Assembly (NCBI RefSeq): GCF_003319115.1
Contig: NZ_QOHF01000021.1
Span: 1-64,000 of the forward strand
From: Geodermatophilus sp. TF02-6
GTDB taxonomy: Bacteria; Actinomycetota; Actinomycetes; Mycobacteriales; Geodermatophilaceae
DNA length: 64,000 nucleotides
Reading direction: 5' to 3'
Made by a program: the position numbers and the translations under genes. Positions 5,165-9,186 of the stretch are shown here, in pieces. The notes under the pieces are model-generated. The model was given only the letters and a program-made list of their open reading frames with translations, ran no database searches and was not told where the DNA came from. Position 1 is the first letter of the stretch; the number at the start of each line of letters is the position of its first letter.

Positions 5165-5246
5165 GGCGGGTTGCCCGAGTGGCCAATGGGAGCGGACTGT
5201 AAATCCGTCGGCACAGCCTACGAAGGTTCGAATCCTTCACCCGCCA
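5165..5246 (+). tRNA. tRNA-Tyr (GUA)
   Basis: An 82-base class II tRNA. The acceptor stem is GGCGGGT with ACCCGCC, the discriminator is A, the anticodon loop is CTGTAAA (anticodon GTA), there is a long variable arm, and the T-loop is GTTCGAATC. CCA is not encoded. It lies between the divergent YajQ-family gene and the convergent TadE/TadG-like gene. Confidence 0.97.
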
Positions 5247-5258
5247 CGCCTGGTACCC

Positions 5259-5299: not shown

Positions 5300-5731
5300 T
5301 CAGGGGGCGGTCGGTGCGCGGGCACTGGCGACGGCGGTGCGCTCCAGCGGCTCCCCGCCCAGGAACAGCCAGCCGAACGCGATCTGCACGTACCGCGTGC
5401 ACCGCACGGTGACCTCCACCCCGTCGGTCGCGGTCGACCAGGAGTCGAGCGCGGTGCCACCGTCGGCCAGCTGGTCGGCCACGGCGGCCTGGGTGCTCAC
5501 GCGGGTGAGCGGCAACGCCGTCCCGACCCCCGTCGCGTAGACCGCTGCCTCGTCGGTCGCGTTGGCCGCCGCCAGCGCCGCGCCGTCGCAGACCGACTGC
5601 ACCTGCTGCTGCTCGAGGAAGGCGTCGGACGCCGCCACGGCGCCGAAGGCCATCAGCGCGGCCACCAGCCAGCACACCAGGACCAGCGGCAGCGTCGAGC
5701 CCCGCTCGGCGGCGTCCCCGTCCCGTCGCAC
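5300..5731 (-). CDS. TadE/TadG-like pilus-assembly or secreted protein
   Basis: A predicted 143-aa protein. It begins with a short charged segment ending in ERGS, then a hydrophobic helix (about 13-33, [19 protein letters not shown]), then [19 protein letters not shown]. That pattern of one membrane anchor followed by a D/E-rich 'DGAALAAA' segment is typical of TadE/TadG-like pseudopilin-related proteins. Start is the GTG at 5731, chosen because coding character and the ERGS boundary begin there; no strong ribosome binding site is seen and the frame is open further upstream. No other tad genes are nearby, so its partner machinery is not shown. Confidence 0.6.
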
Positions 5732-5770
5732 GCGGCGCAGCGTAGGGGCGGCGCCGGCCTCTCCACGACC

Positions 5771-5844
5771 TGTGGACGGCGGTGTGGACGGTTGTGGACC
5801 CGATCGGGGGAACGCCGGTCGCAGCGGTGCCGGCCTGTGGACCC
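5771..5844. promoter_or_regulatory. cluster of four DnaA-box-like TGTGGAC motifs
   Basis: TGTGGACGG (5771-5779), TGTGGACGG (5783-5791), TGTGGACCC (5793-5801) and TGTGGACCC (5836-5844) lie within 74 bases in the same orientation. Their complements, for example CCGTCCACA, fit the loose actinobacterial DnaA box (Y-Y-R-TCCACA). None matches the strongest form, TTGTCCACA, exactly. A DnaA-binding or other regulatory role is inferred. Confidence 0.4.
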
Positions 5845-5999
5845 CGCTCGACACAGCCGGCTCGCGACACGGCAGGACGCTCGGGCGCCCCACCCGGCCC
5901 ACCCGTGTCGGGTGTCCCCTCACCGGGTGACGGGATGCCACGTGTGGCGACGGAGAGTGACGACATGACGGGCGTCGACCGCGTTGTGATCTTCGGCGC

Positions 6000-6029
6000 T
6001 TGTCCCGATCGGGTGACGGGCAGCAATCT
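6000..6029 (+). promoter_or_regulatory. possible promoter of the repeat-peptide gene
   Basis: TTGTCC (6000-6005) and CAATCT (6024-6029) are 18 bases apart. A CCCGATCGGG palindrome (6004-6013) overlaps the -35 region, where an operator could act. The match to the consensus is modest, so this is only a candidate. Confidence 0.25.
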
Positions 6030-6114
6030 CTCGGGCGCGGTCCGTACCCAACGCTCTGCCCCCGCGCCTGGACGACTGCGCCATCGAGCAGTCCTTCATG
6101 CCTGAGGAGGCGTC

Positions 6115-6204
6115 ATGAACACGCAGCGTGGGTCCAAGTGGGGTCGGGGCTCGAAGTGGGGTCGGGGCTCGAAGTGGGGTCGCGGCTCCAAGTGGGGCTG
6201 CTGA
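6115..6204 (+). CDS. 29-residue cationic peptide with four RGSKWG repeats
   Basis: The gene reads MNTQ, then RGSKWG four times, then C and a stop. A very strong ribosome binding site (GAGGAGG) ends 4 bases before the ATG. The four 18-base units differ at several third positions (CGT/CGG/CGG/CGC for Arg, GGG/GGC for Gly, TCC/TCG for Ser, GGT/GGC for Gly), yet every change is synonymous. This indicates selection on the peptide rather than fresh DNA slippage. The product has eight basic residues, four Trp, no acidic residue and a C-terminal Cys; it has no signal peptide or membrane segment. A terminator hairpin follows 18 bases later, so it is a separate short transcript upstream of a GGDEF/EAL gene. 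I do not recognise the family. A modified-peptide precursor, nucleic-acid-binding peptide, antimicrobial peptide or regulatory leader are all possible. Confidence 0.7.
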   Translation: MNTQRGSKWGRGSKWGRGSKWGRGSKWGC

Positions 6205-6222: not shown

Positions 6223-6254
6223 GGGCGGCCGGTCCCGAGACGGACCGGCCGCCC
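6223..6254 (+). terminator. terminator hairpin after the repeat peptide
   Basis: A perfect 12-bp stem, GGGCGGCCGGTC with GACCGGCCGCCC, closes an 8-base loop starting 18 bases after the peptide stop. It separates the peptide transcript from the GGDEF/EAL gene, or could be an attenuator if transcription reads through. Confidence 0.7.
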
Positions 6255-6368
6255 ACTCCGGGTCGGGACCGGTTGCCCCTTTCGGGTCGGTCGCGGCTCT
6301 GCAGGGTCGACCCGCTGTTAGCCTCGGCGCGCTCTCCTCCCGCCGCAGGACTCCCTCCCAGAATCCGG

Positions 6369-8912
6369 GTGACGTTGCCCAGTCCCGAGCCGCGTGCGCC
6401 ATCAGCATGGACCGCGCCACTGCATCCATGGCTCATCGCCGGAGGTGGGACCCTCATGGCGGCCCTCGCGGCTGCCCTGGTCCTCCCCGGTGCCGAGACG
6501 AGGTTCGATCCGGTCGCCTTCCTGATCGTCACGGCCGCGTTCTTCGTCACCGAGTCGGTCTCGTTGCACGTGGAGTTCAGGCGTCAGACGTGGCTGTGGT
6601 CGGTCAGTGAGTTCGCACTGACGATCGCCCTGGTCGAGGTCGGCGGTCTGTGGGCTGCCGTCGCCCGCGCCGTGGGACTCGGGCTCAGCCTGTTGGTGCA
6701 GCGGTATGCCCCGGCGAAGGCCCTCTTCAACATCGCGGTCGCCGTCCTCGAGGTCGCCGTGGCCGTCGCCGTCCTCGAGGTCCTGCCCTTCGACGACCTC
6801 GCCGAACCGGGCAGCTGGCTGTCCCTGATGATCGCCGTCCTCGTCGCCGACGTGGTCGGGACGCCTCCTGTCATGGCGGCGATCCGACTCAGTGGGGGCA
6901 ATCCGAACCGGCGCATGTGGCAGGAGCTCCTCCTCCCGGTGGCCGTCGTCGGCCCCTTCGCCGTGTCGGTGGCCATCGTCGCTCTGATGCTCACCTCCCA
7001 GACCCCGTGGGCCTCCGTGCTCATGCTGCCGGCGGCCGCGGCGGTCATCCTGCTGTTCCGACGGTTCGCCGGCGTCGCCCGCGAGTCGAAGACACTCGAG
7101 CGGGTCTACGAGTTCGCCCGTCGCGTGGAGCAGGTCGGCTCCGACGAGGACGGCACCGGCCGGATCGTCGAGGCGGTCAAGGAGCTGCTCAACGCCGAGC
7201 GCGTGGCCCTGTGGCTGCCGCCCTACCTGGACGAGGGGCCCCGGCTGGTGGTCGCGTCCGACGACGGCCGCGACTGGTACGACGGCCCCAGCGACCCCGA
7301 CGACCCCATCCGCCGGCGCGCCACCGACGGGACGGTCGACGGCCCGGTGCTGCTCTCCCTGGCGCGGGCGACCGAGGAGGAGGCGGCCGCGCTGACCCGC
7401 CGCGGAGCCGAGGACCTCCTCGCCGCCCCGGTGACCACCGCCGCGGGGGAGCCGGGCTACCTCGAGGTCTGCGACCGCCGCAGCGACCTCGTCTCCTTCG
7501 CCGACGGCGACCGCGCCGCCCTGGACTCGATGCTGACCCACGTCAACGCGGCGATCCGGCAGCAGCAGCTGCTCGCCCAGATCCGCCACGACGCCGACCA
7601 CGACCGGCTCACCGGGCTGCCCAACCGGCAGCGTCTCGCCGTGGAGATCGAGCAACTGCTGGCCGCGGACCCGGTCGCCGGACGGGCTGGGCTGATCCTC
7701 GCCGCGCTCGACAACTACACCGAGGTCACCGACACCCTCGGGCACGCGGCCAGCGACGAGCTGCTGCTCGTGACGGCCGGCCTGCTGCGCGAGCACGCCC
7801 CGCCCCAGGCCCTGGTCGCCCGCATGGAGGGCGACCAGTTCGCCGTCCTCCTGCCCGGGCTCTCCCTGCAGGCCACCGAGCGGGCCGCCCGCCGGCTGCG
7901 CGAGGCGACGTCGACCCGCGCCCGGGTGGCCGGTCTGGACCTCGAGGTCACGCTCACCATCGGCGTCGCGGCGGCCCCGGTGCACGGCGCCGACGTCGGC
8001 ACGCTCATGCAACGGGCCGACGTCGCCCTGCTGGCCGCCGGATCCAGCGGCGTGGCCAGCTACCACCCGGTGCTCGACCAGCAGAGCCTGCGCCGCCTGC
8101 AGCTGGGCACCGAGCTCGAGCAGGCGATGACCGACGGCCAGATCGGCGTCGTCTTCCAGCCGATCATCGACGCCCGGACCTCCGACATCGTCTCGGTCGA
8201 GACGCTGGTCCGCTGGGCGCACCCCCGCTACGGCTCGGTCGCGCCGGACGACTTCATCCACCTGGCCGAGCAGATCGGCCGGATCGGCCCGCTCACCGAC
8301 CACGTCCTCGACCTCGCGCTGGCCCGCTGCCGCCGCTGGTTGGACCAGGACATCGCGCTGTCGGTGGCGGTCAACCTCTCCGCGCGGTGCCTGACCGAGC
8401 CGGACCTGGTCGACCGCGTGCGGCGGGCGCTGCGACGCCACGGCGTCCCCGGCGAGCTGCTCACCCTGGAGCTGACCGAGGGCAGCGTCGTCGACGACTC
8501 GGTCCGCAGCAGCACCGTCCTGGCCGACCTGCACGCCCTGGGCCTGCGGCTGTCGATGGACGACTTCGGCACCGGCTACTCGTCGCTGTCCCAGCTGCGG
8601 CAGCTGCCGATCGACGAGGTGAAGATCGACAAGTCCTTCGTGCTGGGCATGTCCACCAGCCAGGGCGAGTCGTTCATCGCCCGCTCGATCATCGAGTTGG
8701 CGCACAACCTGGGGCTGCGGGTGGTCGCCGAGGGCGTCGAGGACGAGCTGACCCGCAACCTGCTGGCCGACATGGGCTGCGACAAGCTGCAGGGCTTCCT
8801 GGTCAGCCGGCCGCTGCCCGACGAGCGGCTGGAGGCCTGGCTGCTGGCCCGTACCGGCGTGCGGTCGGCGGTACCCGGCATCCCCCACCGCCGGCTGTTC
8901 ATGCGCACCTGA
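6369..8912 (+). CDS. membrane protein with degenerate GGDEF and EAL domains
   Basis: About 847 aa from the GTG at 6369; the start is uncertain because the frame is open from 6000 and no clear ribosome binding site is seen. An N-terminal block of several hydrophobic helices (about 15-225) is followed by a GAF-like sensor region (about 255-400), a GGDEF domain from about 407 (DHDRLTGLPNR) and an EAL domain from about 590 to the end. The GGDEF signature reads MEGDQF, so diguanylate cyclase activity is probably lost. The EAL side keeps the catalytic Glu (ETLVRW), DDFGTGYSS near 731, KIDKSF and AEGVED, so it may be an active cyclic-di-GMP phosphodiesterase. It probably lowers cyclic di-GMP at the membrane. 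Confidence 0.85.
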   Translation: MTLPSPEPRAPSAWTAPLHPWLIAGGGTLMAALAAALVLPGAETRFDPVAFLIVTAAFFVTESVSLHVEFRRQTWLWSVSEFALTIALVEVGGLWAAVARAVGLGLSLLVQRYAPAKALFNIAVAVLEVAVAVAVLEVLPFDDLAEPGSWLSLMIAVLVADVVGTPPVMAAIRLSGGNPNRRMWQELLLPVAVVGPFAVSVAIVALMLTSQTPWASVLMLPAAAAVILLFRRFAGVARESKTLERVYEFARRVEQVGSDEDGTGRIVEAVKELLNAERVALWLPPYLDEGPRLVVASDDGRDWYDGPSDPDDPIRRRATDGTVDGPVLLSLARATEEEAAALTRRGAEDLLAAPVTTAAGEPGYLEVCDRRSDLVSFADGDRAALDSMLTHVNAAIRQQQLLAQIRHDADHDRLTGLPNRQRLAVEIEQLLAADPVAGRAGLILAALDNYTEVTDTLGHAASDELLLVTAGLLREHAPPQALVARMEGDQFAVLLPGLSLQATERAARRLREATSTRARVAGLDLEVTLTIGVAAAPVHGADVGTLMQRADVALLAAGSSGVASYHPVLDQQSLRRLQLGTELEQAMTDGQIGVVFQPIIDARTSDIVSVETLVRWAHPRYGSVAPDDFIHLAEQIGRIGPLTDHVLDLALARCRRWLDQDIALSVAVNLSARCLTEPDLVDRVRRALRRHGVPGELLTLELTEGSVVDDSVRSSTVLADLHALGLRLSMDDFGTGYSSLSQLRQLPIDEVKIDKSFVLGMSTSQGESFIARSIIELAHNLGLRVVAEGVEDELTRNLLADMGCDKLQGFLVSRPLPDERLEAWLLARTGVRSAVPGIPHRRLFMRT

Positions 8913-8976: not shown

Positions 8977-9049
8977 GCCCCTTTAGCTCAGTCGGCAGAG
9001 CGTCTCCATGGTAAGGAGAAGGTCTACGGTTCGATTCCGTAAAGGGGCT
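8977..9049 (+). tRNA. tRNA-Thr (GGU)
   Basis: A 73-base tRNA with acceptor stem GCCCCTT/AAGGGGC and discriminator T. The anticodon stem TCTCC/GGAGA holds the loop ATGGTAA (anticodon GGT), and the T-loop is GTTCGATTC. CCA is not encoded. Confidence 0.97.
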
Positions 9050-9108
9050 CCGACACAGGTAGGCTGACCGACCGGTCCAGTCGTGAGACCGGGCCGCACG
9101 GTCGTCCC

Positions 9109-9182
9109 GGCGGTGTAGCTCAGCCTGGCAGAGCAAGCGGCTCATAATCGCTGTGTCACCGGTTCAAATCCGGTCACCGCTA
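9109..9182 (+). tRNA. tRNA-Met (CAU), elongator type
   Basis: A 74-base tRNA with anticodon loop CTCATAA (anticodon CAT) and T-loop GTTCAAATC. The acceptor stem GGCGGTG/CACCGCT starts with a G-T (G-U) pair, and the anticodon stem lacks the three G-C pairs of initiator tRNA, so I call it elongator Met. A lysidine-modified tRNA-Ile (CAU) cannot be excluded from the sequence alone, though the tRNA-Thr/tRNA-Met/rpmG order is common in actinobacteria. Confidence 0.92.
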
Positions 9183-9186
9183 CTCT

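Follow-up and report, generated by a model that had tools for sequence, protein, structure and literature searches.

A tandem GxxW repeat peptide gene beside a membrane GGDEF/EAL gene in Geodermatophilaceae, a candidate ligand-receptor pair

The agr and comQXP loci are polymorphic peptide pheromone-receptor cassettes. Fungal pheromones are produced from multi-copy precursors in which the peptide units change together, and ECF S-components bind small ligands. What many membrane GGDEF/EAL proteins sense is not known. Streptomyces RmdB is described as a 6TM-GGDEF-EAL protein, and CdgC and CdgF have 10TM; the signals perceived by the N-terminal domains of such Streptomyces membrane GGDEF/EAL proteins remain unknown according to the same excerpted source (PMC6205966).

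The window analyzed here is a stretch of 64,000 nt from Geodermatophilus sp. TF02-6. It encodes a stand-alone GxxW array of 29 aa, MNTQ(RGSKWG)4C, followed by a gene for a membrane GAF-GGDEF-EAL protein, referred to below as the receptor. Feature coordinates are given in Table 1.

Table 1. Features of the peptide-receptor locus, in window positions
Feature	Position	Strand	Basis
tRNA-Tyr gene	5165-5247		
Tad-domain (TadE/G-like) gene, divergent, upstream of the peptide gene	5300-5941	-	Pfam
Promoter-like pair, TTGTCC (6000-6005), 18-nt spacer, CAATCT (6024-6029)	6000-6029	+	Similar in relatives
Conserved 5' leader	6034-6114	+	Alignment, helix counts
Leader helix P1, GGCGCGG with CCGCGCC	6034-6040 with 6062-6068	+	
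Leader alternative pairing, CUCUGCCCC stretch with the Shine-Dalgarno region	6054-6062	+	
Leader helix P2, GACTGC with GCAGTC	6074-6079 with 6088-6093	+	
Leader helix P3, around the Shine-Dalgarno sequence	6100-6102 with 6109-6111	+	
Ribosome binding site GAGGAGG	6104-6110	+	Sequence, alignments of relatives
Peptide gene, stand-alone GxxW array (ATG 6115, stop 6202-6204)	6115-6204	+	ORF translation, orthologues
Perfect 13-bp hairpin 3' of the peptide stop, no T tract (arms 6223-6235 and 6242-6254, 6-nt loop)	6223-6254	+	Inverted repeat
Extended -10-like element TGTTAGCCT, 5' of the receptor gene	6316-6324	+	Conservation only
Receptor gene, TTG start	6372-8912	+	Start inferred from conservation in relatives
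Receptor membrane domain	about 6402-7067	+	Predicted
Receptor GAF domain	7161-7556	+	Pfam match, just below cut-off
Receptor GGDEF domain	7593-8051	+	Pfam
Receptor EAL domain	8112-8813	+	Pfam
tRNA-Thr/tRNA-Met genes	8977-9051, 9109-9183		

A preliminary description of this DNA had reported the ribosome binding site and the repeat peptide, and both were verified at their coordinates, with four bases between GAGGAGG and the ATG. Its reading of the codons was also correct: units 2 and 3 have the same DNA, and units 1 and 4 deviate at synonymous positions only. The back-translated RGSKWG motif had five matches in the window at up to one mismatch (four exact, all inside the peptide gene) versus a mean of 0.30 in shuffles; together with orthologues in relatives, this ruled out a chance repeat. 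The peptide matched no family in Pfam, NCBIfam, or PADLOC, in agreement with the earlier view that it is undescribed. A 12-bp terminator stem had been proposed downstream; a stem is present, at 13 bp. The hairpin lacks a T tract, and a terminator scan returned nothing.

Orthologues, which the preliminary description had suggested looking for in relatives, were found in all 26 genus genomes (24 by search and reading, G023 and G024 via leader and receptor) and in 102 of 112 Geodermatophilaceae genomes. The family tally combines a main set of 76, 24 held-out genomes, G123, and G099, and the genera covered are Geodermatophilus, Blastococcus, Modestobacter, Klenkia, Trujillonella, and Goekera. One genome (G034) has an irregular GVSWG array, and no peptide was seen upstream of the receptors of G101-G103. 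Six of the 112 genomes, five of them at most 81% complete, had neither peptide nor receptor at the thresholds used. Weak peptide-profile matches were obtained in G102 and G032. Profile matches outside the family (G190, G163, G039, G201, and G207; E 8e-4 to 2e-6) were judged by eye to be probably frames within other sequence; two of the outside-family loci, L155 and L156, do hold Trp repeats.

Each repeat unit is six residues long, R-x-x-[KR]-W-x, with Trp at position 5 as its defining residue. There are 51 different hexapeptides in 76 genes and 66 in 100 genomes. At least two units are present in 74 of the 76 genes, and in 69 of these 74 all units are the same in amino acids; 66 of the 69 uniform genes have differing DNA among their units. 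Independent draws from the pooled units would yield 0.15 uniform genes on average. Within a gene, divergence per site is 0.424 at synonymous and 0.0148 at nonsynonymous sites, part of the latter coming from the misregistered L149, and between genes the values are 0.493 and 0.321. Position 1 is R in all 76 last units, position 4 is K in 44, R in 29, S in 2, and M in 1, and variation is greatest at positions 3 and 6. Units are uniform within a gene yet synonymously diverged, and therefore the copies change together across species and are kept alike by selection. The purifying selection claimed in the preliminary description is thus borne out, and the nonsynonymous decay that it had proposed looking for in relatives was not seen. 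The first look at a single genome had hidden both this species-wise change of the unit and the GxxW arrays that form protease tails (see below).

Recent tandem duplication was rejected as the sole cause of the uniform units, since within-gene synonymous divergence nears that between species and position-specific codons (CGT first, CGC last) are common to the window gene and L011. Of 36 Ser positions, 4 show both Ser codon families, TCN and AGY, in units with the same amino acids; no single synonymous step joins the two families. Homogenization followed by fast codon divergence of the units might still account for the pattern. By these comparisons of sequence, the peptide ORF is real and strongly selected at the protein level.

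The terminal Cys, previously highlighted as a feature, is not kept among relatives. Lys is not conserved in the last units either, being replaced in 32 of 76, so the earlier suggestion of a Lys-Trp crosslink is unsupported. An antimicrobial or toxin peptide, possibly a crosslinked RiPP of the streptide/tryglysin sort, would fit a cationic sequence with regularly spaced Trp. This explanation is nevertheless very improbable, given a peptide that is near-universal in the family at a fixed place, acidic counterparts in family f9 (DGGSWT and DGNTWT), and the variable Lys.

Alignment of 71 upstream regions revealed the promoter-like pair; a consensus promoter scan found no match there, so the pair is assigned on conservation only. 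The leader that follows is conserved, at 80-90 nt across relatives. A leader model, R1, matched 100 of the 103 peptide loci tested, comprising all 76 main-set loci, among them the 35 used to build the model, and 24 of 25 further peptide loci. It did not match L334 (G070) or two G099 loci. Helices P1-P3 have 90.7% of cells paired and 15 two-sided changes versus 5.5 in shuffles, counts that lean towards the window structure because the structure was drawn from the window sequence. The alternative pairing between the C-rich stretch and the ribosome binding site is compatible with 96.2% of cells, most of them without variation. The RNAalifold consensus was weak (nine pairs, covariation term -0.18), and folding of single sequences gave no clear advantage over shuffles (z -1.48 to 0.95). 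The pairings suggest control of translation.

No known RNA element could be assigned to the leader. Over the window, Rfam gave three tRNAs plus five further matches (E 0.5-4.4), with nothing at the leader up to E 5; in 13 relatives, at gathering score, it returned tRNAs only. Across 249 genomes of the order, under strict filters, the leader model gave no credible match outside the family; two genomes with matches at E about 0.06 (G040 and G045) were dismissed on visual inspection. One locus (L025) carries a second leader copy on the minus strand (2201-2288), about 520 nt upstream of the first, and this copy precedes a different ORF (MSKRARSKKRRRTGRDVPPSRWPAVVVV...).

The leader raises the question of a regulatory or dual-function RNA in which the leader is active and the peptide secondary. 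High conservation, the P1-P3 counts, and a conserved C-rich stretch able to pair with the ribosome binding site speak for such an RNA. We regard it as quite unlikely in view of the strong protein-level selection on the peptide, the two G099 array loci and one G070 locus without a leader match, and the arrays and peptides of families that gave no credible leader-model match. An RNA role and a peptide role may both be true, with the leader controlling peptide synthesis.

Besides the receptor gene, the neighbors identified at the peptide locus are tRNA genes and a Tad-domain gene. The peptide-receptor pair lies between tRNA-Tyr and tRNA-Thr/tRNA-Met genes in the window. A tRNA gene was present in 12 of the 13 relatives' loci scanned, and a tRNA-Tyr gene in L173 of another family. 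The Tad-domain gene was found in 42 of 76 relatives' stretches.

A membrane GAF-GGDEF-EAL gene lies downstream of the peptide on the same strand at 76 of 76 main-set loci. The signaling link to the GGDEF/EAL neighbor that the preliminary description had considered possible is now strongly supported. Between the two genes is a conserved extended -10-like element, recognized from sequence only. Pfam detected nothing in the first 276 residues of the receptor even at E 10. An AlphaFold2 model of the membrane part, built from 27 sequences, had a pLDDT of 84.7. Its 18 best structure matches were ECF S-components or CbiM/NikM-type subunits, aligned over 151-193 residues at Z 10.6-14.5, and the next match had Z 6.6; these scores come from realigning Foldseek's own list, and helical bundles can reach Z values of up to about 13. 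On its own, Foldseek returned weak E-values, with a best of 0.055. The receptor membrane domain is predicted from the model to have the six-helix fold of ECF-transporter S-components.

The fixed order of the genes could also be read as a cis-acting leader peptide, in which ribosome movement over the Arg and Trp codons of the array controls receptor gene expression. The ORF is short, R and W occur in nearly every unit, a hairpin follows, and the receptor gene is next at all 76 loci. However, the receptor gene seems to own a conserved promoter element, residues other than R and W are also kept identical among the units of a gene, and like arrays are found as protease tails. Unit identity moreover follows the receptor's sensor residues, not its catalytic residues. 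A cis-acting role of this kind is unlikely.

Mean distance among receptors is 0.568 for the sensor (membrane) domains and 0.253 for the GAF/GGDEF part. With the catalytic part controlled for, unit and sensor distances are correlated (partial r 0.322, p 0.001, 76 genomes), and the reverse test of unit against catalytic distance given the sensor gave 0.032. The partial correlation was 0.282 (p 0.002) with third-codon-position controls, 0.296 (p 0.002) with a leader control, and 0.423 (p 0.002) with Tad gene and leader controls in 42 genomes. Given the sensor, unit distance gave 0.011 against the Tad gene and 0.062 against the leader. The correlation was replicated in 24 held-out genomes (partial r 0.270, p 0.003). 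This set omits L342, which comes from the genome that also holds L098, as well as the short L345, the G099 loci, and L349-L352, where there is no regular peptide.

The same trend is seen among pairs whose catalytic parts differ by less than 0.1. Here the sensor distance is 0.142 for the same unit (18 pairs), 0.330 for one unit difference (24 pairs), and 0.442 for at least two differences (19 pairs). L021 and L023 have catalytic, Tad gene, and sensor distances of 0.089, 0.077, and 0.593, with units RSTRWG and RGQKWN; L016 and L024 have a catalytic distance of 0.026 and a sensor distance of 0.242, with units RGNRWG and RGNRWS. G099 encodes two copies of the receptor, one accompanied by an array of RAGRWG units and the other by an array of RNGRWG units. 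The arrays at these two loci (L348 and L353) have hardly any N-terminal part, and the leader model matched neither locus.

Some relatedness remains in these data. With the catalytic part controlled, unit distance gives 0.114 (p 0.014) against the leader and 0.108 (p 0.058) against the Tad gene, and given amino-acid distances it gives 0.129 (p 0.008) against third-position distance. Recombination of a block carrying peptide and sensor could produce the same pattern of co-variation. A signal on one sensor face, positive in the 76 genomes with faces chosen after column scores, failed in the 24 held-out genomes and was discarded. As judged from aligned sequences, the sensor diverges and co-varies with the unit while the c-di-GMP part stays conserved, and residual relatedness remains.

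At the order level, 35 upstream regions were examined, 32 from other families and 3 from within-family paralogues, taken by rank, with three skipped, from 58 matches outside the family's own loci. A small ORF preceded by a Shine-Dalgarno sequence and ending near Trp occurs in 15 of the 35 (2 on the reverse strand), and small [GD]xxW peptides occur in 14 (0 of 35 on the reverse strand). One of these 14 (L201) is probably chance, and the peptide of L206 escaped the count. No small Trp peptide was found upstream of the three paralogues (L188, L198, and L202). Repeat-type peptides include (DGGSWTFA)n, (DGNTWTFV)n, and GALWGYTSGALWG. Others look secreted, for example MSGRxLGRLLGSLL...DVVWG. Peptides of family f16 (L184, L191, L195, L199, and L205-L207) have in common an N-terminal segment resembling MSGRxLGRLLGSLL, and they carry a Trp motif close to the C-terminus; L195 has two DVVWG units.

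At the class level, the receptor domain was found in 47 of 197 genomes, and 69 upstream regions were examined of 93 matches outside the family's own loci. Arrays of at least four Trp at 5-9 residue spacing were present in 30 of the 69 regions (reverse strand, 0 of 69) and absent in 39, some of which are cut by contig ends. Of the 30 arrays, that of L224 is seemingly a chance match and that of L287 belongs to a tiny peptide; most others look, by eye, like C-terminal tails of subtilases. The L287 peptide (MSDTKTPGTGWHLIT...), with four PGTGWH repeats, is a further unit type upstream of a class-level receptor. Four array proteins were run against Pfam and all were Peptidase_S8; in the proteins run, library profiles recognized the protease part and not the GxxW tail. 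Subtilase-like array proteins with up to 23 Trp in a row lie directly upstream of a membrane GGDEF/EAL gene (L215, L216, L217, L219, L221, L223, L229, L231, L234-L237, and others). In one further family, a secreted-looking peptide ends in GTRWGSADRGTRWG. The common element is a short GxxW motif at periods of 5, 6, 8, and 9, and single-motif forms also occur.

Arrays that are C-terminal tails of S8 proteases in other families raise the alternative of a structural, wall-binding, or sorting tail, whose adjacency to the receptor reflects joint regulation by c-di-GMP and not ligand binding. Tryptophan-rich repeats can bind carbohydrate, which would suit such a role. Against a tail function stand the varying unit period (5, 6, 8, or 9 residues), the occurrence of forms with a single motif, and the co-variation of the unit with the membrane domain of the receptor; the alternative is fairly unlikely.

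A ligand-receptor pair that feeds into c-di-GMP is suggested by the combination of adjacency, co-variation, and a predicted ligand-binding fold. With moderate confidence, we propose that the peptide serves as the ligand, or as its precursor, for the adjacent c-di-GMP receptor, with diversifying specificity. The recognized unit would be the short G-x-x-W-[GSTN] motif, present here four times as RGSKWG. This motif would bind the S-fold membrane domain of the receptor, and binding would change GGDEF/EAL output and hence the c-di-GMP level. Unit and receptor would diversify together as a specificity pair, and the conserved leader would set the amount of peptide made.

One finding against the ligand reading is that no signal sequence was evident by eye in Geodermatophilaceae peptides; signal sequences were seen by eye in several peptides of other families and in the proteases. 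One mechanism must cover peptides with and without a signal sequence. Given the cytoplasmic GAF-GGDEF-EAL part and eight helices in the model, the ligand side of the S-fold would face the cytoplasm.

More tentatively, and with less than even confidence, the system may be class-wide in actinobacteria. GxxW arrays, as tiny peptides or subtilase tails, would then be multi-copy precursors of species-specific signals, read by membrane c-di-GMP receptors of S-component fold, with unit and sensor co-diversifying. If the proposed pairing is true, it supplies a group of actinobacterial c-di-GMP receptors with a candidate ligand that is genetically encoded and synthesizable, and the arrays would provide a bacterial counterpart to fungal-type multi-copy precursors with units changing in concert.

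The peptide and receptor pair is new, a judgment based on the finding that neither the peptide nor the receptor membrane domain belongs to a named family of the libraries searched. A search of the open PubMed Central literature found no paper on such a peptide-receptor pair. Its logic resembles that of known peptide-receptor cassettes. As in agr and comQXP, a small peptide gene lies beside a membrane receptor gene (76 of 76 loci), and a fast sensor domain co-varies with the peptide while the output domain is conserved. Unlike those systems, the output here is GGDEF/EAL and the peptide is a tandem GxxW array; the parts are unrelated, no processing enzyme was recognized among the neighbors identified in Geodermatophilaceae, and in other families the upstream protease itself carries the array. 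Streptide and tryglysin differ in that the Lys beside Trp is not conserved here. S8 subtilisin-like proteases (PF00082) are related to the locus through the GxxW tails found elsewhere in the class upstream of the same receptor type, whereas the window gene is the array alone. The predicted fold of the receptor membrane domain is like that of the ECF S-components ThiT, RibU, and FolT and of CbiM/NikM, but the receptor is fused to GAF-GGDEF-EAL and has extra helices, with 9-17% identity in the aligned parts. RmdB, CdgC, and CdgF likewise combine a membrane part with c-di-GMP domains; compared by description, they differ in domain make-up and helix counts, and the excerpted source mentions no peptide partner for them (PMC6205966).
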